From the NCBI GenBank assembly GCA_947631865.1, contig CANRNF010000029.1, positions 1-33,956 on the forward strand: 33,956 nucleotides of DNA, given 5' to 3'. Every line of letters starts with the position of its first letter. The stretch's first letter is position 1. The DNA is from an uncultured Oscillospiraceae bacterium. GTDB taxonomy: Bacteria; Bacillota; Clostridia; Oscillospirales; Oscillospiraceae. A program made the translations under genes and the position numbers. The notes under the pieces were generated by a model. That model made no database searches. It saw nothing but the letters and a program-made list of their open reading frames with translations, and had not been told where the DNA came from. This document shows, piece after piece, positions 4,722-32,146 of the stretch.

Positions 4722-7700
4722 TCAAAGTTCTTTCGATGCCGTCTCAGCATAATCCGCGATGAACGCCCGTGCCTCTTCCAAAATGCGCCGGCGGGAGGCT
4801 AGGCGCAGCATCACGGCGGGTTTTCCGCCGGCGTCCACCTTCACCCGGCCCTTCCACGCCGGCCTGGCGTACAGGGCGCTGATGCGGGCGAAATCGAAAT
4901 TGGCGAAGGTGAACTTCACCGCGCCGCCCTTCTGAGAGATGTCGGTGATGCCCTGGGCAGAGGCCTCGCCCCGGAGGAGGGCCACCTGGATGAGGGCGTT
5001 GACGCTGGGGGGCGGGTCGCCGAAGCGGTCGCACAGTTCGTCGGTGATGTCGTCCGCCTCCGCTTCCGTGCGGATGAGGGCCACCCGGCGGTAGATGTCC
5101 ATCCGCTGGGCGGAGCTGCGCACATAGCTCTCCGGGATATTGGCGTTCACCGAGAGGTCGGCGGAGCACTCCGCCCGCACGGGCAGGGGCTCGCCCTTCT
5201 CCTCCAGGACCGCCTCCTCCAGGAGCTTCAAATACATATCGTAGCCCACGTCGATCATGTGGCCGGACTGTTCCGCGCCCAGAAGATTGCCCGCGCCCCG
5301 GATCTCCAGGTCCCGCATGGCGATGCGGAAGCCGGAGTTGAACTCGGCGAACTCCCGGATGGCCTCCAGGCGCTTTTCCGCCACTTCCGTCAGGACCTTG
5401 TCCTTCCGGTAAGTGAGATAGGCGCTGGCCCGGCGGGCGCTGCGGCCCACCCGGCCCCGGATCTGGTGGAGCTGGGCCAGGCCCATTTTGTCCGCGTCCT
5501 CGATGATGAGGGTGTTCACGTTGGGGATATCGATGCCCGTCTCGATGATGGTGGTGCACACCAGCACCTGGGTCTGGCCCTGGGTCACCTTTTCCATCAC
5601 GGCGGACAGCTCGTTCTCGCTCATGCGCCCGTGGCCTACGTCCACCGCCACGTCCGGCAGCAGCTCCATGATCTTGGCCGCGGTGCGCTCGATGTTCTCG
5701 ATGCGGTTGTGCAGGTAATACACCTGCCCGCCCCGGGCCACCTCCCGTCGGATGGCGTCCGCCACCACGCCCCAGTCGTGCTCCATGACGTAGGTCTGCA
5801 CCGGCAGCCGGTCCCTCGGCGGTTCTTCCAGTGTGGACATATCCCGGATGCCGGACAGGGCCATGTTGAGGGTCCGGGGGATGGGCGTGGCGGACAGCGT
5901 GAGCACGTCCACCTGCTTGGTGAGCTCTTTTATATGCTCCTTATGGCCCACGCCGAAGCGCTGCTCCTCGTCCACCACCAGAAGCCCCAAACGCTTGAAC
6001 GACACGTCCTTCTGCAGCAGCTTGTGGGTGCCTATGACGATGTCGCAGGAGCCGTCAGCCAGGGCCGCCAGGGTCTTTCTGGCCTGGGCGGGGGTGCTGA
6101 ACCGGGACAGCATGGCGATGTTCACCGGGAAGCCGAAAAACCGGCTCACGGCGGTCTGATAATGCTGCTGGGCCAGGACCGTTGTGGGCACCAATATGGC
6201 CGCCTGCATCCCGTCCAGCACGCACTTCATCACCGCCCGCAGGGCCACCTCCGTCTTGCCGTAGCCCACATCGCCGCACAGGAGTCTGTCCATGGGCGAC
6301 GGACGCTCCATATCCTTTTTGATCTCGTCGATGCACCGGAGCTGGTCCTCCGTCTCGGTGTACTCGAAGGCCTCCTCGAACTCCCGCTGCCAGGTGGAGT
6401 CGGGGGCGAAGGCGTGGCCGGGGCTCTTCTGCCGGGCGGCATAGAGGTTTATGAGTTCGCCGGCCATCTGCTTGGCGGCGGCCTTGGCCCGGCTGCGGGC
6501 CCGGGTCCAGTCGGCGCCGCCCAGCTTGGACAGCTTCACGGGGGCGTCCTCCCCCGCGCCGATGTATTTGGTCACCAGGTCCAGCTGGGTGGCGGGCACA
6601 TAGAGGCTGTCCGTCCCGGCGTAGCAGATCTTGATATAGTCCTTCTCCACACCGTCCACGGGCATTTTGAAGATGCCCGCGAAGCGGCCGATGCCGTGGG
6701 TCTCGTGGACCACCAGGTCCCCCACGGCCAGGTCCTCGTAGGACCCCAGTCTTGCCCCGGCGGGCAGGGCGCGCTTGCGCCTGGCGGGGCGCAGGCCGCT
6801 CTTCACGATCTGGGTGTCCGCCAGCACGGCCAGCTTGATCTGGGGGTACTCCAGCCCCGCGGAGAGGCTGCCCACCGCCAGGGCGCAGGTGCCGGGCTCC
6901 GGGAGTTTTTCGAGGACGGTATCCATATAGACCCGCTCCACGCCCTTCTCCCGCAGGATGTCCGCCAGGGCCTTGGCCCGGCGCTCGTCTCCGGCCAGGA
7001 CCACGCACCGGTAGCCCTCTCCCAGCCAGTGGCGCACATCCTCCGCGGCCTGCTGGCCGCTGCCGGCGTAGGAGGGCAGCTGCTTGGCGGTGAGGCCCAT
7101 ATTGGTCTTCACCGGCAGGGGATACCGGCCCACGGTGAAGGCGTCCGCCATCACCACCGGCCAGTCGGCCAGCCGTTCCGACGCCTCCTCCCAGGTGGCA
7201 TAGAACTGGGCGTACCGGCCCAGGAGGGTGCCCCCTTCTATGAGAAGGCGCACATCCTCGGCGGCCTGCTTAAGGAAATCCCGGGCCCGCTGGGCGCACT
7301 TGCCGGGCTGGTCCAGCACCACCAGCGCGTCCGGGGCGAAATAGTCCAGGGCCGTGGCGGCTTTGGGGTAGATAAGGCCCATATACCGGTCCGCGGCGGT
7401 GAATTCCGCCCGGTTTTCCAGGGCCTCCATATCCGCAGCCAGGTTCTTGCGCAGCTTTTCCACGTCGAACTTCGTGGCGTTGCGGTTCAGTTTTCCGTAT
7501 AGCTCATGAAGAGCATTTATGAGCCCCTCCCGGCCCCCCTCGGCCAGGGAGGGAAGGGTCTCCGCCGCCGGCAGCACCCGCAGGGAACGGAGCTTACCCG
7601 TGCGGCGCTGGCTGCCCGGGTCGAAGGCGTGGAGGGCGTCTATCTCGTCCCCCCAGAACTCCAGCCGGGCGGGGGCGTCAGCTGCGGCGCTCCACAGGTC

Positions 7701-8201
7701 CAGGATGCCGCCTCTGCGGGCGAACTGGCCGGGACCCTCTACCTGGTCGGCGGAGCGGTATCCGGCCCGCAGGAGCCTGTCTATGAGCTCCTCGGGGGGT
7801 ATCTCCTGGCCCTTCTTCAGGGTGAACGCCGCCCGCTCCAGAGCCGCGGGGGGCATGGCGCGCATCAAAAGGGCCCCCGCGGTCACCACCGCGGGGGGCG
7901 GGTCGTCCGCCCGGAGGCTGTCCAGGGCCCGGAGCCTTTTCTGCTCCGTCTGACGGGACACGCTCTCGGAGGAATAGAAGGTATAGTCCCGGCCCGTGAC
8001 CGTGACCACCTCCCGGCCCAGGAAGGACCGCAGGTCCGCGGCCATAGCCTCCGCGGAGGCGTCGTCCGGCGTCACCACGCAAAGGGGCCGGCCGCATTTT
8101 TCCCCCAAGGCCGCCGCCAGGTGGGCCCGGTGGATGGGCGCCAGGCCGGAGACCAGGGCAGGCAGACTGCCCCCTTCCACCAGATCGGGGAGGGGGGTCA
8201 T
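4722..8201 (-). CDS. mfd: Transcription-repair coupling factor Mfd
   Basis: 1159 residues from the chosen start, the usual size. Mfd displaces RNA polymerase stalled at DNA lesions and recruits UvrA. An N-terminal UvrB-like region is followed by the RNA polymerase-interacting CarD-like domain (GDLVVHETHGIGRF). Next comes a superfamily 2 helicase/translocase with Walker A (GDVGYGKTE), DEEQRFGV and SATPIPRTLNMAL, then the TRCF C-terminal domain (MRDLEIRGAGNLLG). The start is ambiguous: ATG at 8201 gives the family-like N-terminus MTPLPDLVEGG, while ATG at 8261 has a GGGG upstream and adds 20 residues. The gene is divergent from dnaA and on the leading strand if the origin is at 9.8 kb. Confidence 0.96.
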   Translation of the reverse strand: MTPLPDLVEGGSLPALVSGLAPIHRAHLAAALGEKCGRPLCVVTPDDASAEAMAADLRSFLGREVVTVTGRDYTFYSSESVSRQTEQKRLRALDSLRADDPPPAVVTAGALLMRAMPPAALERAAFTLKKGQEIPPEELIDRLLRAGYRSADQVEGPGQFARRGGILDLWSAAADAPARLEFWGDEIDALHAFDPGSQRRTGKLRSLRVLPAAETLPSLAEGGREGLINALHELYGKLNRNATKFDVEKLRKNLAADMEALENRAEFTAADRYMGLIYPKAATALDYFAPDALVVLDQPGKCAQRARDFLKQAAEDVRLLIEGGTLLGRYAQFYATWEEASERLADWPVVMADAFTVGRYPLPVKTNMGLTAKQLPSYAGSGQQAAEDVRHWLGEGYRCVVLAGDERRAKALADILREKGVERVYMDTVLEKLPEPGTCALAVGSLSAGLEYPQIKLAVLADTQIVKSGLRPARRKRALPAGARLGSYEDLAVGDLVVHETHGIGRFAGIFKMPVDGVEKDYIKICYAGTDSLYVPATQLDLVTKYIGAGEDAPVKLSKLGGADWTRARSRAKAAAKQMAGELINLYAARQKSPGHAFAPDSTWQREFEEAFEYTETEDQLRCIDEIKKDMERPSPMDRLLCGDVGYGKTEVALRAVMKCVLDGMQAAILVPTTVLAQQHYQTAVSRFFGFPVNIAMLSRFSTPAQARKTLAALADGSCDIVIGTHKLLQKDVSFKRLGLLVVDEEQRFGVGHKEHIKELTKQVDVLTLSATPIPRTLNMALSGIRDMSTLEEPPRDRLPVQTYVMEHDWGVVADAIRREVARGGQVYYLHNRIENIERTAAKIMELLPDVAVDVGHGRMSENELSAVMEKVTQGQTQVLVCTTIIETGIDIPNVNTLIIEDADKMGLAQLHQIRGRVGRSARRASAYLTYRKDKVLTEVAEKRLEAIREFAEFNSGFRIAMRDLEIRGAGNLLGAEQSGHMIDVGYDMYLKLLEEAVLEEKGEPLPVRAECSADLSVNANIPESYVRSSAQRMDIYRRVALIRTEAEADDITDELCDRFGDPPPSVNALIQVALLRGEASAQGITDISQKGGAVKFTFANFDFARISALYARPAWKGRVKVDAGGKPAVMLRLASRRRILEEARAFIADYAETASKEL

Positions 8202-8333
8202 ATTATTGTTTTCCAGGATCGCCAGGGTCAGAGCATTCACAGTAAATACCTCGATGCCCATTTTACCCCGCCGGGCCGCCGCTTTCAACCCCTTTCGGTC
8301 AAAAAATGGGACCGGTTTTGTGGTATTTTCCAG

Positions 8334-8362
8334 TTGTATCCTGTTTAGAATAATGTTATAAT
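8334..8362 (+). promoter_or_regulatory. dnaA promoter
   Basis: TTGTAT at 8334-8339 and a consensus TATAAT at 8357-8362 are 17 bases apart, about 60 bases ahead of the dnaA start. No consensus DnaA box was found in the gap between mfd and dnaA, so autoregulation by DnaA through a close-by box is not evident on this side. Confidence 0.75.
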
Positions 8363-8423
8363 AAGCTGATACATATTTATTATTATTAAAACTGACCTTT
8401 CACCAAGTAAAGGGGGCGGGGAT

Positions 8424-9740
8424 ATGAACTCCATGAACTCCATCCAGGACATCTGGCAGAGCGTCATCGACAAGCTCTCCGAGCAGCTCACACCCATCGC
8501 CATTAACACCTGGTTCTCCGACTGCCAGCCGGTGGCACTGGAGGACAGGCGTATCGTACTGCAGACCACCAGCGACTTCAAGCGCAGCATCATCCTCCAG
8601 CGGTTCGGGGACACCATCCGGAAAACACTGTCGGATATCTTTTCCTGCCCCTTCGATATCCTCATCCTGACCCCGGATGAGATGGAGGACTACCAGAAGC
8701 CGGAGGCGGACGACGACCTTCCCGAGGCGGCGGCCTTCACCTTTGACCGGTTCATCGTTGGTCAGTCCAACAAGTTCGCCTACGCCGCCGCTATCGCCGT
8801 GGCGGAGACCCCGGGGAAGAAGTACAACCCCCTCTTCATCTACGGCAACTCCGGCCTGGGCAAGACCCATCTGCTGCTGGCCATCGCCCACGCGGTCCGG
8901 GAGAAGACCCCCAGCGTGAAGATCAGCTACGTAAAGGGCGAGGAGTTCACCAACCAGCTGGTATCCCACCTGCAGCGAAAGACACCGGAGGAATTCCGCA
9001 ATAAGTATCGGAACGTGGACCTCTTCCTGGTGGACGATATCCAGTTCATCGCCGGCAAAGAGCGGATCCAGGAGGAGTTTTTCCACACCTTCAACGACAT
9101 CTACGAGGCCGGCCACCAGATCGTCATCACCTCCGATAGACCCCCCAAGGAGATGGCCAACCTCCAGGACCGGCTCCGCACCCGCTTTGAGGGCGGCCTG
9201 ATGGCGGACGTTCAACCGCCAGACCTGGAGACTCGCATGGCCATCATCCGCAGCAAGAGCATGGGCCTTGGCCTTGTCCTCTCCGACGACATCGTGGAGT
9301 ACATAGCCGAGTCCATCACATCCAACATCCGCCAGATCGAGGGCGTGGTCCATCGGCTCACCGCCTACCGGGACATGCTGGACGATACCATCAACATCAA
9401 CAGCGTGAAGCGGGCTATCAAGGACGTGATACAGCTGGGCGTATACGTACCCACCCCAGAGGCCATCATCGCCGAGACCAGCCGCTATTACGGTATCGAC
9501 GAGGACGCCCTCCAGGGCCGCCGCCGCAGCAAGAATACCGCCGTAGCCCGGCACATCTCCATGTACCTCATCCGCAGTCTCACCAGCATGAGTCTGGAGA
9601 ACATCGGCCAGCTTTTTGAGAAGAACCACTCCACTGTTCTATACTCCATCCGGAAGGTGGAGGACCTCATAAAGACCGACCCGGAGACCGCCGCCGCCAT
9701 ACGGGACATCACCTCCAACCTGAACGCCCGCGGGCAGTAG
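8424..9740 (+). CDS. dnaA: Chromosomal replication initiator DnaA
   Basis: 438 residues. DnaA-ATP binds DnaA boxes and opens the origin. Domain I is at about 1-80 (SIQDIWQSVIDKLSEQLTPIAINTWF). A short linker leads to the AAA+ domain with Walker A GNSGLGKTH (141-149), Walker B LVDD (202-205) and the RLRTRFEGGL segment (250-259). The DNA-binding domain IV holds the DnaA signature region RHISMYLIRSLTSMSLENIG (376-395) with NHSTVLYS (401-408). A purine-rich AGGGGGCGGGG lies just before the ATG. A second in-frame ATG three codons in is possible. Domain II is short. Confidence 0.98.
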   Translation: MNSMNSIQDIWQSVIDKLSEQLTPIAINTWFSDCQPVALEDRRIVLQTTSDFKRSIILQRFGDTIRKTLSDIFSCPFDILILTPDEMEDYQKPEADDDLPEAAAFTFDRFIVGQSNKFAYAAAIAVAETPGKKYNPLFIYGNSGLGKTHLLLAIAHAVREKTPSVKISYVKGEEFTNQLVSHLQRKTPEEFRNKYRNVDLFLVDDIQFIAGKERIQEEFFHTFNDIYEAGHQIVITSDRPPKEMANLQDRLRTRFEGGLMADVQPPDLETRMAIIRSKSMGLGLVLSDDIVEYIAESITSNIRQIEGVVHRLTAYRDMLDDTININSVKRAIKDVIQLGVYVPTPEAIIAETSRYYGIDEDALQGRRRSKNTAVARHISMYLIRSLTSMSLENIGQLFEKNHSTVLYSIRKVEDLIKTDPETAAAIRDITSNLNARGQ

Positions 9741-9972
9741 GACCGCTTTTTAACAAAGTTTTGCGCCTGACGATTTGAAAACGGTCAAAAAAATCTCCGC
9801 CTCTTCCTCTTTGACAGAATGGTGCAAAACCATCCCTTTTATCCACAGACTTTCCCACATCTCTTTTGTCCGGTCCAACGGCATTCTTCCCGGTTTCTGA
9901 CATTTTCCCCTGTCTCTACTACGACTACTAAAAATATATCCTACCTTGCTATCTATGATGGAGGACGAAGAT
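9741..9972. other. oriC: oriC-like dnaA-dnaN intergenic region
   Basis: The 232-base gap holds one exact DnaA box, TTATCCACA, at 9839-9847, and a weaker TTTCCCACA at 9851-9859. At 9916-9930 CTACTACGACTACTA reads as five DnaA-trio triplets (TAG-type on the other strand) and runs straight into AAAATATAT (9931-9939), an unwinding-prone tract. This matches the Bacillus subtilis arrangement of DnaA-trios next to the unwinding element, although the exact DnaA box is about 70 bases away instead of adjoining. Transcribed genes point away from this gap on both sides. I did not compute GC skew. Confidence 0.75.
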
Positions 9973-11088
9973 ATGAAATTTTCCTGTGACAGATCCATGC
10001 TTCAGGCGGCCGTGGCGACCGCCAGCCGCTGCGCCGCGGCGAAGAGCCCTATCCCCGCTTTGGAAGGCTTGCTCATCCAGGCAGGCAGCGACGTGCGCGT
10101 GACGGGCTATGACCTGAAAAAGGGCATTTATACCAGTATCCCCGCAGACGTGACGGAGCCAGGCTCCATCGTGCTCAGCGCCCGGTTTTTGAGCGATATC
10201 GTCCGCAGTCTGCCTGCCGGAGAGGTCACCATCTACACGGAGAACGGCCTCAACACCCGCATCCAGTGCGGCGACGCGGACTTCACCACCGTGGCCTCTG
10301 ACAGCGCCGACTATCCGGAGCTTCCTTCCGTTGACAAAGAGAGGGCCATCTCCGTGCCACAGGGCATCCTGAGCCGGATGATCCGTCAGACGGTGTTCGC
10401 CGTCAGCGACAACGAGAGCCGCCCGGTCTACACCGGCGAGCTCTTTGAGGTCAAGGGCGACGAGCTCACCCTGGTGGCGGTGGATGGCTACCGCCTGGCC
10501 CTGCGGCGGGAGAAGGTGGACGCCAAGGACGTGGAGGACTGCTCTTTTATCGTTCCCGGCGCCACCCTCAGCGACCTGGAAAAGCTCTGCGGCGACACCG
10601 ATGAGAAGGTATCTATCACCGTAGGCGCCAAGCACATCTCCTTCGTAGCCGGCGATACGGTGCTGGTTTCCCGGCGGCTGGAGGGAGAGTTCCTCAACTA
10701 CTCCCGCTCCATCCCCTCGGAGTTCGCCGTCGAAGTAGAGGCGGACAAGGAGGAACTGGTCCAGGCGGTGAGCCGGGTGTCCATCATCGTGGACGAGCGG
10801 ACGAAGAACCCCCTGCGGCTGAAGCTGGAGGACGGCCTTCTCACTATCTGGTGCAACACCGGCGTGAGTCAGGGCAAGGATCAGTGCGCCGTGAAGGGCG
10901 GCAAGGACGCCTCCCTGGAGATAGGCTTCAATAACCGCTATCTGCTGGACGCCCTGAAGGCCGCCCCGGCGGAAAAGCTGGACCTGTGCTTCAATAACGC
11001 CTCTTCCCCCTGCGTGGTACTGCCCGCGGATGGGTCCGACGGGTTCTCCTATATGATCCTGCCCGTGCGCCTGAAGGCCGGCGCATGA
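9973..11088 (+). CDS. dnaN: DNA polymerase III beta subunit (sliding clamp)
   Basis: 371 residues, the usual clamp length. The protein forms the ring that tethers replicative polymerase to DNA. Family features include MKFSCDRSMLQAAVATASRC at the start, SRPVYTGELFEVKGDELTLVAVDGYRLA in the middle domain, and the C-terminal MILPVRL. The start at 9973 is chosen over the upstream in-frame ATGs because GGAGG at 9960-9964 is spaced 8 bases from it and MKF is the family start. The stop overlaps the recF start (ATGA). Confidence 0.98.
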   Translation: MKFSCDRSMLQAAVATASRCAAAKSPIPALEGLLIQAGSDVRVTGYDLKKGIYTSIPADVTEPGSIVLSARFLSDIVRSLPAGEVTIYTENGLNTRIQCGDADFTTVASDSADYPELPSVDKERAISVPQGILSRMIRQTVFAVSDNESRPVYTGELFEVKGDELTLVAVDGYRLALRREKVDAKDVEDCSFIVPGATLSDLEKLCGDTDEKVSITVGAKHISFVAGDTVLVSRRLEGEFLNYSRSIPSEFAVEVEADKEELVQAVSRVSIIVDERTKNPLRLKLEDGLLTIWCNTGVSQGKDQCAVKGGKDASLEIGFNNRYLLDALKAAPAEKLDLCFNNASSPCVVLPADGSDGFSYMILPVRLKAGA

Positions 11089-27301: not shown

Positions 27302-28210
27302 ATGAGCGCACCACAGTCAACGAGAGGGTCCCAGACCCGTCCCCGGTCCCAGCAGGGCAGAGCTCCAGCCAGGACAGCCCAGGGGAACCGGCCCCGCACG
27401 GCGCCGAAAAAACGGCGGCGCCGGAACGGCGCCGGACGCCGGGCGTTTTATCTTCTGATCGTTTTACTGGGCGTCGCGGGGGTGATGTACATGGCCCTGC
27501 GGCTGTTCGCCGGGCCCGGCGGTGAGAAGGCCGCGGCGGCCTCCGCTCCGATGCCCTCCCGTCTGCCGGTGACGGCCCAGCCCGCCGCCACGCCGCTGCC
27601 CACGCCCACGCCCCCCAATGTGGACGTGAACAGCTGGGAGCTGCGGCTCATCCGCTATGAAAAGCCCCTGGGGGCGGACTTCGTGCCCGAGTCCCTCACG
27701 GAGATCGAGAACGGCCAGCAGGTGGACAGCCGGATCGCCCAGCCCCTGAAGGACCTGTTCGGCGCGGCCCGGGCCGCGGGCTATGACGTGTATTTCTGCT
27801 CCGGCTACCGGGACTACAACACCCAGCACATCATCTATTTCGACAACCATGTGGATGTGTATATGGCCCAGGGCATGAGCGAGGAGGAGGCCAACGCCAA
27901 GGCCCGCCTGGCGGTGAACTACCCCGGCTCCAGCGAGCACCAGTCCGGCCTGTGTGCCGACATCCTGGAGAGCCCGAATCAGGACATGGAGCCCTATATC
28001 GGCGGCAGCGGCCTGATGCTCTGGCTGGAGGAGCACTGCGCCAAGTACGGCTTCGTGATCCGCTATCCGGCGGACAAGACGGAGATCACCGGCGTGGAAT
28101 ACGAGCCCTGGCACCTGCGCTATGTGGGCGAGACCGCCGCCAAGTACATGATGGAGCACGGCCTGTGCCTGGAGGAGTTCCTGGCCATGTACGGCGTCAC
28201 TTACAGCTGA
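27302..28210 (+). CDS. VanY-type D-alanyl-D-alanine carboxypeptidase
   Basis: 302 residues. A basic, Arg/Gln-rich cytoplasmic tail (1-47) leads to one membrane helix (48-69), a Pro/Thr-rich linker (82-106), then an extracellular VanY/DacY-type Zn peptidase. The zinc set is H213 and D220 (SEHQSGLCAD) and H271 (EPWHLRYVG), with catalytic E268. It trims the terminal D-Ala of peptidoglycan stem peptides. A GGAAGG sits 11 bases upstream. A four-codon ATG frame at 27291-27305 overlaps the start. The RyR gene begins 10 bases after its stop. Confidence 0.92.
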   Translation: MSAPQSTRGSQTRPRSQQGRAPARTAQGNRPRTAPKKRRRRNGAGRRAFYLLIVLLGVAGVMYMALRLFAGPGGEKAAAASAPMPSRLPVTAQPAATPLPTPTPPNVDVNSWELRLIRYEKPLGADFVPESLTEIENGQQVDSRIAQPLKDLFGAARAAGYDVYFCSGYRDYNTQHIIYFDNHVDVYMAQGMSEEEANAKARLAVNYPGSSEHQSGLCADILESPNQDMEPYIGGSGLMLWLEEHCAKYGFVIRYPADKTEITGVEYEPWHLRYVGETAAKYMMEHGLCLEEFLAMYGVTYS

Positions 28211-28220
28211 TACATAATGT

Positions 28221-28544
28221 ATGTTCTCGAGAAAAAAGAAAGCAGGTGTCGTTTTGGATTACGTACCGCATCCCGTCGATCTGAGCGGCGTGGAGCTGAG
28301 CGGGCAGCTCGCCCGGGACATCGAGCGGATCGCCGAGAACATCCATGAGACCTGGGCCCTGCAGCGGGTCCGGGCCGGCTGGGTATACGGCGAGAAGAAC
28401 GATTCGGAAAAGAAGACCCACAGCGGCCTGGTGGAATATGACCGGCTGCCGGAATCGGAAAAGGACGTGGACCGTGCCACGGTGACACAGACGATAAAGA
28501 TGCTCCTGTGGCTGGGCTACAGGATAGAGCCGCGGGAGGATTGA
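28221..28544 (+). CDS. Small RyR-domain protein
   Basis: 107 residues that consist almost wholly of one RyR domain (PF02026 type): DYVPHPVDLSGVELS, then IAENIHETWALQRVRAGWVYG at 37-57, KTHSGLVEYDRLPESEKDVD at 65-84, and a closing helix ending in LGYRIEP. In animals RyR repeats are part of ryanodine receptors. In bacteria they occur in small proteins and as parts of sensor proteins, with ligand unknown. The ATG at 28221 has no Shine-Dalgarno; a TTG at 28254 with AGGTG five bases upstream would give a shorter protein that keeps the full domain. It is two bases upstream of the SLOG-like gene. Confidence 0.88.
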   Translation: MFSRKKKAGVVLDYVPHPVDLSGVELSGQLARDIERIAENIHETWALQRVRAGWVYGEKNDSEKKTHSGLVEYDRLPESEKDVDRATVTQTIKMLLWLGYRIEPRED

Positions 28545-28545
28545 C

Positions 28546-30201
28546 ATGGCGTTTCAATTGGCGGTAGGCGGGCGCCTGCCGGAAGCCGGCCCGGTCCTGG
28601 ACGCGGTCCGCGGGCGGCTGGGGGACATCCTGGCTTGGCTGGACCCGGCGTCCGGCGGGCCGGGCGTGCAGTTTTTGATGAGCCCCGCCTATACGGACGA
28701 GCGGTGGGCGTCCCTGCCCGGTGTAGACCGGGAGGACGTCTTTTGCTTCTGCAAGCGGGACGACCCGGACTGGTCTGCCCGCTGCGGGAAGACCCTTTGG
28801 GAGGACGCGCCCCTGCGGGGCGTGCTGGGCGAGGCCATGTGCGACCGGGCGGACCTGGTGCTGGCGGTGTGGGACGAGGACGTGACGGAGATCTCCGGCG
28901 CCACCTGGGAGCTGATACAGCTGGCCCACAAGGAGAGAACGCCCTGCCTTTGGCTGTCCACCCGGACGGGCGCGGCCTATTGGTCCAAAGAGTCCTATTA
29001 TGAACCCCTTTCCGACGAGGGGCTGAAAAAGCTCTGCATGGCCCACAAGGCCCAGGCCCCGGAGCCCGCCCTGGCAGAGGGGCGGCGTGACCCTCTCCTG
29101 GCCCTGGGGGCCAGGCTGCGCCGGCGGTTCCTGCGCAAGTACGACGCCCTCAAACCGGAGACTGCCCCGGAGGAGGACCACATTTTGCAGGACGGCTTCT
29201 CTCTGGAAGAGGAGCGGGCCGGGGCCGAGGGCGTGCGCCGCGGCATCCTGGCGCGGTACAGCCGCTTCGACTCTGCCGCCATATCCCTGAACGGGGAGTA
29301 TCAGGCTGTGCTGTACTGGCGGGCCATCCTGCCCTTCGCGGCCTCCGTGTTTCTGGCGGTGGGCTTTTACGCCGAGACCCTTCTCAGCGTGACGGGCATG
29401 GGGTCGACGCCCCGGGCCGTCCTGGCGGGCACCGGCTTTCTCATCCACGGGCTTTTGAATCTGTACGTCTATTTCCTGTCCCGTAACGGGAGCATACAGC
29501 GCAAGCACCAGGCGTTCCTGCAAAACCGTTACATAGCTGAAGTCCTGCGGGTGCTGGTTCATCTGGTCCCCTACGGGGTCTATGCCGACCTGCGGGACGT
29601 GTGCGGCGGCAGCGAGGCGCTCCGGGCCGGCCTGCAGGAGATGACGCTGGCGGACGAGCCCGACGTCCAGCGGCTGGACGGCCGCACCGCCCATATGGCG
29701 CTTGTCCATATCCACGAGATGCTGGCGGACCAGATCGCCTACCACAAGGCCGCGGCGGCCCGCCTGCGGCGGGTCCTGGACCGGCTGGATAAGCTGTACC
29801 AGCTGATCTTCAAACTGGGCTTCGCCCTGGTGATCCTGCGGGCATTTTTGCAGTTTTATGTCTGTGTCTTTCCCATCACCGGCAAGATCAACGGGGTAGA
29901 GCTGAACAGCTTCATCCGCAGCGCGGCCAACATGATCGCGCTGATGGTGCCGGCCTGGGCGGCCTATTTCTCCTCCAAGATATCCCTTTGCAATTTCCGT
30001 TTCGACTATGATAGCCATGTGCGCACGGAGGACAGTCTGGGCGACCTGCTGGCCCAGGTGGACACGCTCCTGGCCATGGGAGACGCCGTGCCGGTAGACG
30101 TGCTGAACAACCTGTCGGAGGAACTGGTGCGAAGCATGATCGTGGAGGACGCCCTGGCCTGGGAACGGAAATACCAGAACGCCACCGTGACGCAGCTCTG
30201 A
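28546..30201 (+). CDS. SLOG-like domain fused to a four-helix membrane region
   Basis: 551 residues. The N-terminal ~150 residues look like a SLOG-type (Rossmannoid nucleotide-sensing) domain: RADLVLAVWDEDVTEISGAT at 101-120, then WELIQLAHKERTPCLWLS, which is the strand-turn-helix-strand seen where such proteins read as AVWDGxxAxGxGGTAE. Four membrane helices follow at about 256-280, 290-312, 417-442 and 455-477. The loop between helices 2 and 3 has KHQAFLQNRYIAEVLRVL, a pattern that recurs in SLOG-linked membrane effectors. The C-terminal tail is cytoplasmic-like. GGGAGGA is at good spacing. Function is not known; ligand-controlled membrane action is inference. Confidence 0.75.
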   Translation: MAFQLAVGGRLPEAGPVLDAVRGRLGDILAWLDPASGGPGVQFLMSPAYTDERWASLPGVDREDVFCFCKRDDPDWSARCGKTLWEDAPLRGVLGEAMCDRADLVLAVWDEDVTEISGATWELIQLAHKERTPCLWLSTRTGAAYWSKESYYEPLSDEGLKKLCMAHKAQAPEPALAEGRRDPLLALGARLRRRFLRKYDALKPETAPEEDHILQDGFSLEEERAGAEGVRRGILARYSRFDSAAISLNGEYQAVLYWRAILPFAASVFLAVGFYAETLLSVTGMGSTPRAVLAGTGFLIHGLLNLYVYFLSRNGSIQRKHQAFLQNRYIAEVLRVLVHLVPYGVYADLRDVCGGSEALRAGLQEMTLADEPDVQRLDGRTAHMALVHIHEMLADQIAYHKAAAARLRRVLDRLDKLYQLIFKLGFALVILRAFLQFYVCVFPITGKINGVELNSFIRSAANMIALMVPAWAAYFSSKISLCNFRFDYDSHVRTEDSLGDLLAQVDTLLAMGDAVPVDVLNNLSEELVRSMIVEDALAWERKYQNATVTQL

Positions 30202-30226
30202 CAGTTCGGAGAGAGGAGGCGAGGGG

Positions 30227-31669
30227 ATGCGGAAGGCCCTTGCGAAGATAGGTAAATACTGTCTGTTCCTGATCCCCGGCGCCTTGGGCTTCATCGGACT
30301 GCATGTGCTGGCTCAGCCTCCGGAGCTTCTGGGAGACGCCCTCTATCACAGCTTGAACATGTATCTGCTGGACTACGGCGGAGACGCGCCCAACGCGCTG
30401 GTGGAGATCGCCCGCTGGACAGCGCCCCTCTGTACGGCCAGCGGCGTGGTCCTGGCCGTCGTGGCGGCCCGGGACTGGCTGTTGAATTACGCCCGTTATC
30501 GCAGAGGACGGGCCGTAGCCGTTTACGGCCCGGCGGAGGAAAAGGCGGACATGCTCGCCCAGCTGGGCCGGGAGGGCGTGGACGGCAAGGAGCGCTTCAT
30601 CCGGGCCAACCGGTATATCCTCCTGCAGGAGGAGAGCCAGGTGTTCGCTTTCTATAACCGCTACCGGCGGGATTTCGGCGGGGCGGACGTATACGTCAAA
30701 TGCAGCGCCATCCCGGCCCAGGCGGCCTCCGCGCCCCATCTGCACCTGTTCTGCCCGGAGGAGACGGCGGCCCGGACGTTCTGGAAGCGGCGGGACCTGT
30801 ACGCCCTGTCCCGGACCCGGGAGCACCATATGCAGATCGTGCTGCTGGGCTTCGGCAAGCTGGGGGAGGAGGTCCTGACCTACGCCCTTCAGGGCAACGT
30901 CTTTGCCCCGGACCAGCGCATCGAGTACCATATCTTCGGGGACGGCGCCCGGTTCCGGGCCATCCACACCCAGCTGGAGGAGATATCCGACCCGGTGGTG
31001 TTCCACGGCGAGCCCTGGTACGAGCGGCTGACGCTGCTGGAACAGGCGGATCTGGTGCTGGTGCTGACCCAAGAGGGCCAGCTGGAGCTGCTGCGGGACC
31101 TGCTGCTGGCCACGTCGCGGCCTCAGATCGACGTGTTCGCGGCGGACGGAGAGACCCCCGGCCTCCTGGACGGCCGGGAGCGGCTGACGCTCTACGCCTG
31201 GAAGGAGGAGGGCCACCGGCTGGAGAACATTTTCGGCGACGCCCTTCTGGCCCGGGCCAAGCAGATCAATATGCGCTACGAGACCGAGTACAACGGCGTT
31301 CCGGACAACGAGAAAAACCGGGAGGAGGCCTGGCAGCGGCTGGATACCTTCACCCGCTATTCCAATATCAGCGCGGCGGATTACCACGACGTGCGCCTGG
31401 CTATGCTGGCCGCCATAGGCGTCCGGCCGGACCCGGAAACGTTGCCGCCGGAAGTGCTGGAGCTGCTGGCGGAGCTGGAGCATATCCGCTGGAGCCGGTA
31501 TCACCGGCTGTATAACTGGCGCTGGGGCGTGCCGGAGAACGGCGCCGCCAAGGACCGGGCCCGCCGCATCCACGCGGACCTGGTTCCTTACAGGGAACTG
31601 CCGCCGTCGGAAAAGGAGAAGAACCGCGAGACCGTCAAAATGATGCTGAGCCTGGACTGGCAGGCATGA
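30227..31669 (+). CDS. Membrane protein with Rossmann (TrkA-N-like) region and C-terminal RyR domain
   Basis: 480 residues. Two membrane helices are seen at about 10-30 and 62-85. A first alpha/beta region covers about 94-190. A second is a classical dinucleotide-binding fold, with IVLLGFGKLGEEVLTYAL at 204-221 (GxGxxG), DQRIEYHIFGDG and ADLVLVLTQEGQLELL, resembling TrkA-N/RCK domains. The linker has ARAKQINMRYE and YSNISAADYHDVRLAMLAAIG, and an RyR domain covers 413-475 (AELEHIRWSRYHRLYNWRWG, ADLVPYRELPPSEKEKNRET). No pore or selectivity filter is visible. AGGAGG lies upstream. Terminator follows directly. Confidence 0.78.
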   Translation: MRKALAKIGKYCLFLIPGALGFIGLHVLAQPPELLGDALYHSLNMYLLDYGGDAPNALVEIARWTAPLCTASGVVLAVVAARDWLLNYARYRRGRAVAVYGPAEEKADMLAQLGREGVDGKERFIRANRYILLQEESQVFAFYNRYRRDFGGADVYVKCSAIPAQAASAPHLHLFCPEETAARTFWKRRDLYALSRTREHHMQIVLLGFGKLGEEVLTYALQGNVFAPDQRIEYHIFGDGARFRAIHTQLEEISDPVVFHGEPWYERLTLLEQADLVLVLTQEGQLELLRDLLLATSRPQIDVFAADGETPGLLDGRERLTLYAWKEEGHRLENIFGDALLARAKQINMRYETEYNGVPDNEKNREEAWQRLDTFTRYSNISAADYHDVRLAMLAAIGVRPDPETLPPEVLELLAELEHIRWSRYHRLYNWRWGVPENGAAKDRARRIHADLVPYRELPPSEKEKNRETVKMMLSLDWQA

Positions 31670-31738: not shown

Positions 31739-32146
31739 TCACCGCAGGGAACCTAAATATCCCTCCAGGATGAGGGCCGCGGCCACGGCGTCCACGGTGG
31801 CCTTGTGCTTTTTCTCCCTCTTGCCGTTCTCCCGGAGGATGCGGTGGGCATCCACGGTGGTGCGCCGCTCGTCCCACAGGACCACGGTCATGCCCCGCTC
31901 CTCCAAAAGGGCCTTCAGGGCCCGGCTCTTCTCTGCCCGGGGGCCCTCGGTGCCGTCCATATTCCGGGGAAGGCCCAGCACCAGGGTGCCCACGTCCCGG
32001 GCTTTCGCCTCGGAAACGATGGTATCCGCCAAGACGGCGGGGTCCCACTGGGTGATGACGAAGGTCTCCCCGGCCAGCATCCCCAGCATATCGGACACGG
32101 CGATGCCCGTGCGGGCGTCGCCGTAGTCTATGGCCATCACTCTCAT
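31739..32146 (-). CDS. ruvX: RuvX/YqgF family Holliday junction resolvase-like protein
   Basis: 135 residues with the RNase H-like fold: IDYGDARTGIAVSD at 6-19 (D7 first metal ligand), LGLPRNMDGTEG, WDERRTTVDAHRIL and VDAVAAALILEGYL. The family takes part in 16S rRNA 5'-end processing and is related to RuvC. The start overlaps folT by 4 bases (ATGA), so it is read with the folate transporter component. Confidence 0.95.
   Translation of the reverse strand: MRVMAIDYGDARTGIAVSDMLGMLAGETFVITQWDPAVLADTIVSEAKARDVGTLVLGLPRNMDGTEGPRAEKSRALKALLEERGMTVVLWDERRTTVDAHRILRENGKREKKHKATVDAVAAALILEGYLGSLR

Follow-up and report, generated by a model that had tools for sequence, protein, structure and literature searches.

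A locus of an uncultured Oscillospiraceae bacterium encoding a lone RyR domain, a probable SLOG-membrane protein and a predicted pore/RCK/RyR protein: a candidate effector module of a TIR-linked signalling circuit

Three consecutive genes in a 33,956-nucleotide stretch of DNA of an uncultured gut Oscillospiraceae bacterium (GenBank assembly GCA_947631865.1, contig CANRNF010000029.1; below, the window) encode a lone RyR-domain protein (RyR1; 28221..28544, 107 aa), a protein that probably joins a divergent SLOG domain to a membrane region (SLOG-TM; 28546..30201, 551 aa) and a predicted pore/RCK/RyR protein (TMR; 30227..31669, 480 aa). Their open reading frames (ORFs) lie on the forward strand with spacings of 1 and 25 bases, in agreement with a preliminary description of this DNA. 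Relatives of TMR are linked to genes of TIR proteins, and the sister genome carries, within this same locus, a TIR gene that the window locus lacks. We consider it fairly probable that these proteins make up the effector side of a Thoeris-like circuit based on an NAD-derived signal, with an RyR-gated channel as the effector.

The link between TMR and TIR genes is strong. A scan of genome contigs for relatives of TMR, from which 80 of 149 were kept, yielded, by record title, mostly sequences of gut Clostridia (Lachnospiraceae, Oscillospiraceae, and others) and one of Atopobiaceae. The 85 TMR loci that we compared comprise 79 of these 80 scan loci, loci L013, L014, L016, L017, and L018, and the window; L111 and L015, which represent the same places as L014 and L112, respectively, were dropped, and the near-copies L080/L095 and L110/L112 were retained. 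A gene encoding a TIR, TIR-like or DUF4062 protein is present within 4 kb of TMR, as measured from the near edge of its ORF to the TMR ORF, in 53 of the 85 loci. There are 58 such genes: 43 at less than 400 bases, where 3.2 of the 58 would be expected, 15 at 0.4-4 kb, and none at 4-10 kb, a range in which 634 kb of flanking sequence is visible. The 43 close genes are codirectional with TMR and downstream of it (23), codirectional and upstream (6), divergent (8) or convergent (6). As an independent yardstick, 32 Pfam TIR_2 matches were found in 36 genomes, i.e., about 0.04 per 100 kb by the sum of the listed sizes. On a quick tree of TMR proteins (81 rows, with L014 and L183 added and L111, L017, L018, L114, L087, and L113 omitted), the TIR label costs 22 changes, hardly below the average of 25.0 for shuffled labels, and starred branches account for 16 that cannot be avoided; contig-cut loci (e.g., L046, L048, and L090) were counted as having no TIR gene, which inflates the number of changes. 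These label changes suggest repeated gain or loss of TIR genes next to TMR.

The sister genome (G033) has a SLOG-TM that is 96% identical to that of the window and is located at the same site, with an extra gene (L013, 2469-4271) between the genes of a VanY-type protein and RyR1. The product of this gene (600 aa) contains an N-terminal TIR_2 domain (1.3e-14), a hydrophobic segment at about residues 151-173, as found by reading of the sequence, and a PDZ_6 match near the C-terminus (2e-6; 27.9 bits at a cut-off of 27). The best PDB match of its TIR domain is SARM1 TIR (4.9e-23), and the glutamate of its DWVHKE motif, which we take to be the catalytic one, aligns with that of DWVRYE; the aligned glutamate is kept in 43 of 50 TIR domains. 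In G006, a third genome of the genus, a two-gene form is found, where a TIR gene (63% identical) lies 16 bases before a TMR gene (58%), and neither RyR1 nor SLOG-TM was found. The TIR proteins of L013 and G006 match several PADLOC TIR models weakly, including ThsB (1.6e-6 and 1.7e-7). The preliminary description had seen no signal-making gene nearby, which is true of the window, but not of the sister genome, where the TIR gene stands within the operon.

The window junction retains a deletion scar (28211..28229) at the site of the missing TIR gene: the sequence GATACATA, common to both genomes, is followed by a 12-base filler (28217-28228) and then by the RyR1 start shared with the sister. The filler supplies the ATG of the RyR1 reading frame. 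It also holds ATGTAT, the reverse complement of the adjacent ATACAT, as in templated end joining. Pfam TIR_2 has two matches in the whole window genome, both on contig C51 and of another TIR type, encoded by tandem similar genes (L184:4149-6920 and 6944-10069); they are possible sources of signal in trans for the window strain. In the best reading, TIR is the missing partner of the module, from which the window locus appears to have been orphaned in this strain.

The AlphaFold2 model of TMR (pLDDT 94.7) comprises a helix (TM1, residues 2-28), a short pore-like helix (35-46), a second helix (TM2, 57-92), an RCK-like ring unit with Rossmann units at about 97-200 and 201-330, a helical linker, and a C-terminal RyR domain (about 408-480; PF02026 3.8e-7, residues 410-476, 30.7 bits vs. 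the curated cut-off of 27.4). The two membrane helices and the GxGxxG Rossmann region (G208-F-G210-K-L-G213) of the preliminary description are thereby borne out, and two membrane helices, a pore helix and RCK units are the elements of the RCK-gated K+ channel fold, which TMR would adopt according to its model. Re-ranking of its fold matches with VIA-align placed RCK rings at the top among the families listed, and its structural neighbours include GsuK structures with NAD or ADP as the ligand. The structure alignment (A5) includes 58 of the 80 scan loci and the window.

RyR1 is a bare RyR domain (PF02026 3.6e-31, 107.7 bits vs. the same cut-off of 27.4), with the RyR chimera 6uhi as its best match in the PDB (9.9e-58), so that the domain exceeds the cut-off in both proteins to which it had been assigned earlier. 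Lopez Rivera et al. 2026 (PMC13232231) report phage RyR-domain proteins that bind 2' and 3' isomers of cyclic ADP-ribose (2'cADPR and 3'cADPR); one of these proteins, RyDEP, cleaves them by means of H75 and D117, with W78 contacting the adenine and H100 the phosphates. Among eight further phage homologues in that work, six bound 2'/3'cADPR and none is reported to cleave. In the animal R12 repeat, the equivalent tryptophan is described as the binding site of AMP-PCP or ADP (PMC12627627), and further study of the R12 region is called for (PMC13232231). By spacing relative to RyDEP (PMC13232231), the ligand residues of RyR1 would be H42, W45, H67, and D84 (codons at 28344, 28353, 28419, and 28470, forward strand), with the intervals of 25 and 17 residues kept; the RyDEP-type catalytic dyad of H and D, as well as the ligand W and H, thus appear to be present. 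In TMR, the relevant residues are H419, W422, and H449, but the position of D117 is occupied by N466 (codon 31622..31624, forward strand), and the dyad is lacking. Across 85 aligned rows of the family, this position is D in 78, N in six and a gap in one. The N is found in five of five SLOG-TM loci vs. one of 79 others, although few lineages are involved and the placement of L017 and L018 in this pattern depends on an uncertain alignment, H449 being also lost there.

In SLOG-TM, hhalign and hydropathy point to a probable SLOG domain at about residues 1-175 and a membrane region at about 250-480. Residues 86-141 match the SLOG-motif domain profile of relatives with an hhalign probability of 93.5 (E 2.3e-7) over 55 columns only, and the protein matches its L017 relative in BLASTP (2.7e-5). 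These results speak for the SLOG domain proposed earlier, but no Pfam match, neither to SLOG nor to SLATT, was obtained for the window protein, and its alignment profile gave chance-level matches only against the PDB (best 0.26). The proposed four membrane helices were not recovered: hydropathy indicates two strong segments (254-272 and 424-442), and the AlphaFold2 model is poor (pLDDT 45). The membrane region of the relative encoded at L018 matches DUF4231 (1.1e-4) and SLATT_1 (0.0084), both under the cut-off. SLOG-TM also adjoins TMR in genomes G007, G156, and G270, while a lone RyR1 was seen beside TMR only in the window genome (G000) and the sister genome. The idea of a conserved three-gene set was therefore rejected, the full trio having been seen only in these two genomes. 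At L126:8360-12461, in another family of the phylum, a SLOG-TM gene overlaps a gene encoding a TIR and WD40-propeller protein; there is no RyR in the stretch listed.

The association of RyR with TIR extends beyond TMR. In a sample of the phylum, an RyR domain is encoded by 10 of 398 genomes, in eight of which an RyR gene has a TIR or DUF4062 neighbour no more than 1.6 kb away, the exceptions being the window genome and G201. The carriers are lone RyR proteins, TMR, AAA-RyR proteins, HD-like proteins with RyR (by reading), and a RelA/SpoT + SLOG + RyR protein. In a second phylum sample, chosen around the Atopobiaceae-labelled genome, RyR was found in 17 of 346 genomes. A TIR or DUF4062 gene is located less than 400 bases away in seven of the 20 RyR loci fetched from it, less than 4 kb away in four more, at about 6 kb in one, and is not seen in eight, several of which end early at the sequence edge; these distances start at the longest ORF that covers the RyR match, and in some GC-rich loci (L222, L228, L231, L232, and L235) that ORF may be a shadow frame. 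One AAA chassis (40-42% identity) has a C-terminal RyR domain in G183 (L016:5312-7504) and a SLOG domain in G167, G248, and G367 (L122:9631-12504, L123:6658-9459, and L125:9420-12206), a swap that speaks for one shared function of RyR and SLOG, the reading of a signal.

Several other RyR proteins were observed. An 864 aa protein encoded at L132:9814-12408 combines RelA/SpoT (9.1e-16), LSDAT_prok/SLOG (1.1e-4, below cut-off) and RyR (3.9e-10), with a TIR gene 1.6 kb away; judged by its domains, it may be a synthetase of the alarmone type that is controlled by two signal-reading domains. HD-like proteins with a C-terminal RyR region (by reading) are encoded at L130:8019-9755, L131:8866-10602, L067:7872-9863, and L096:7627-9615. 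Those in L130 and L131 share a 4-base overlap with a TIR gene, as is usual in translational coupling, the partner in L130 being a TIR-LRR gene. RyR-like reading frames are also present in 42 phage records (20 listed); among those listed, BK061591.1 is annotated as 'Anti-CRISPR protein' and three as 'Ca2+ release channel domain'. Such phage proteins may be anti-TIR sponges or enzymes.

The module fills the space between the gene of a VanY-type D-Ala-D-Ala carboxypeptidase (27302..28210, forward strand; PF02557 1.2e-32) and ruvX (31739..32146, reverse strand; PF03652 7.6e-35), which face one another. Among 11 pieces of the genus (L190-L200), the alignment ends of VanY and ruvX are 58-83 bases apart, i.e., the site is empty, in five; the gap is filled by 0.7-1.7 kb of other DNA in three, and ruvX is not shown in three. 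Other DNA inside the gap is located at L191:3235-3945, L192:1640-3125, and L199:2728-4430. The gap may be a small integration hotspot. SLOG-TM was found in three of 35 genomes of the genus, and this distribution, together with the variants of the VanY-ruvX gap, makes the module look like a patchily present insertion at a variable site. The dN/dS values of the trio relative to the sister genome (0.06-0.17, as compared with 0.08 for VanY, over a span that includes pre-deletion time) indicate purifying selection, which argues that the three ORFs are not chance frames.

The source genome is a 3.0-Mb draft in 150 contigs with a completeness of 87%. Twenty window proteins were scanned, among which the products of dnaA, dnaN, a recF-type gene, gyrB, and gyrA, GerA-type and mfd-type proteins, products of gpr and ruvX, an ECF transporter and others were identified, while four had no match at 1e-5. 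As these are housekeeping genes near dnaA and no defence neighbour was recognised among the 20 proteins, a defence island around the window was rejected. A plasmid origin was rejected as well, TMR having no match in plasmids. A scan of viral contigs with the SLOG-TM and TMR alignments gave no confirmed relative, and NCBIfam gave only a chance-level match for the trio (YidC, 0.16).

From these data we infer a course of events that concerns the ligand, oligomeric state, gating and toxicity of the module as well as its possible role in phage defence. In the intact form, as in the sister genome, a membrane-anchored SARM1-like TIR enzyme would be triggered by infection or envelope damage and would convert NAD+ to an ADP-ribose-type signal. 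The signal would be bound by the RyR domain of TMR and probably also by that of SLOG type in SLOG-TM. Binding would open TMR, whose predicted fold is that of a 2TM-RCK channel, and SLOG-TM would form or gate a second membrane lesion; the collapse of the ion gradient would stop growth, as an abortive defence or an envelope alarm. RyR1 may tune TMR as a second RyR subunit, or it may switch the response off by sequestering or cleaving the signal. The window strain would depend on a TIR protein from elsewhere, such as the two encoded on C51, or else its circuit would be idle. Of the earlier interpretation, the RyR, probable SLOG and membrane parts hold, and the best-supported reading is still that a membrane effector responds to a nucleotide-derived signal.

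Several results weigh against this proposal. The window locus itself has no TIR gene, as opposed to that of the sister genome, and 32 of the 85 TMR loci, the window included, show no linked TIR or DUF4062 gene in the sequence seen; some of these end at a contig edge and others are clearly solo genes. Single occurrence of homologues, which the preliminary description regarded as evidence against a system, is thus partly true of the trio, while the link between TMR and TIR is strong. The TIR profile is biased against other TIR types located farther off, since its seed sequences all came from within 5 kb of TMR. Unlike many mobile defence genes, TMR has neither a plasmid match nor a confirmed relative in viral contigs, and PADLOC has no family for the trio and no model for TMR. 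The K+ filter motif TVGYG is absent, residues 46-56 of TMR being YLLDYGGDAPN, a region variable in the family, and with no TVGYG, TMR could also be a non-channel membrane anchor. Plain Foldseek searches with TMR put dehydrogenases first (E 4e-4 to 1e-2). Finally, the PDZ end of the sister TIR protein, which would lie outside, suggests an envelope rather than a phage trigger.

Among the alternatives, the one that concerns RyR1 is compatible with the proposed circuit. RyR1 may possibly clear the TIR signal, as a glycosidase like RyDEP or as a sponge, leaving TMR and SLOG-TM as the only effectors. The RyDEP spacing of H42, W45, H67, and D84 favours this role, while TMR of the SLOG-TM loci has N at the D position. 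However, of the eight further phage homologues six bound and none is reported to cleave (PMC13232231), and for animal R12, where these residues are conserved as well, binding but not cleavage is reported (PMC12627627). That a lone RyR1 beside TMR was seen in two genomes only also weighs against it.

Somewhat less likely, TMR would serve gut Clostridia in ion homeostasis, as a channel that common adenine nucleotides or NAD(H) gate via RCK and RyR, with the linked TIR genes affecting the NAD level and with no immunity involved. The lack of plasmid matches and confirmed viral relatives fits such a channel, as do the loci with no linked TIR gene, many of which lie amid ordinary chromosomal genes, and the NAD- and ADP-bound GsuK neighbours. 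The patchy presence in the genus, seen for SLOG-TM, and the empty sites do not, and the partners of TMR change among TIR, DUF4062, and STAND proteins.

We regard it as unlikely that the copy in the window is merely decaying since the deletion of the TIR gene. The absence of this gene and the junction with its filler agree with decay, but the three ORFs are intact, their dN/dS is low relative to the sister (with the reservation on pre-deletion time given above), and two TIR genes are present elsewhere in the genome. Even less credible is an assembly error of the metagenome-assembled genome, which the fragmented and incomplete draft would allow, but against which stand the different type of the two C51 TIR genes, the only TIR_2 matches of the genome, and a filler that repeats its neighbour in reverse complement and looks like a biological deletion.

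If the proposed circuit operates and TIR products open TMR, ligand-gated ion channels would be a new class of TIR effectors, phage RyR proteins would be mimics of host receptors, and the animal channel would gain an immune ancestry. The action of cADPR on ryanodine receptors, and its site, is a matter of long dispute. Tentatively, the locus could be a prokaryotic counterpart of the animal cADPR-ryanodine-receptor axis, in which a cyclic ADP-ribose isomer made by a SARM1-like TIR opens a pore/RCK channel via RyR. In that case, the reception of TIR signals would be an ancient function of RyR domains, which bacteria would combine with channel, AAA, HD-like and RelA/SpoT proteins and from which animal R12 would descend. 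With its soluble, small RyR domain and a compact channel-like protein, the module, whose relatives hold TIR genes at their loci, offers a simple system for the measurement of binding and gating, with the caution that the partner gene is absent from precisely the genome under study. TIR signals, SLOG sensors, SLATT effectors, RCK rings, and RyR domains are already known as parts; in the literature covered, from which a 2025 survey of TIR systems and two other relevant works are missing, we recognised no description of a TIR-RyR channel operon or of bacterial RyR effectors.

The module shares features with several known systems and differs from each. RyR1 keeps the HxxW...H...D ligand residues of phage RyDEP; RyDEP is, however, a viral counter-defence enzyme with sponge homologues, whereas here RyR is encoded in a host operon, both alone and on a channel-like protein. 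In the TIR-SLATT conflict systems, as presented in the excerpts of PMC9503650, a TIR gene also accompanies that of a putative 2TM effector with a proposed response to ADP-ribose derivatives, but these excerpts contain no RyR or TrkA term, while an RyR protein is the constant part here. The animal R12 has in common with the bacterial domains the RyR fold and the position of the adenine-stacking Trp, yet it is repeated in tandem within a protein some 5000 residues long, and the bacterial repeats are single and placed on two proteins. The predicted arrangement of helix, short helix, helix and RCK-like Rossmann units in TMR resembles that of GsuK, MthK, CASTOR, and TrkA, from which TMR differs in having no TVGYG filter and in its C-terminal RyR domain. 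The known effectors of Thoeris are of the SIR2-SLOG, Macro and caspase types. As in Thoeris, a TIR gene of relatives (in the operon in the sister L013 and in G006, not in the window) stands beside an effector with a domain able to bind a cADPR-type signal, and SLOG, a probable assignment here, occurs in both; the effectors here would instead be a pore/RCK/RyR protein and a probable SLOG-membrane protein, and ThsA had no PADLOC match among the window proteins, TMR of L183 and L016, and SLOG-TM of L126 and L017. The extra domains of SARM1 are ARM and SAM, whereas the TIR domain of the sister locus, for which SARM1 TIR is the closest relative in the PDB, is fused to a transmembrane helix and a PDZ end.

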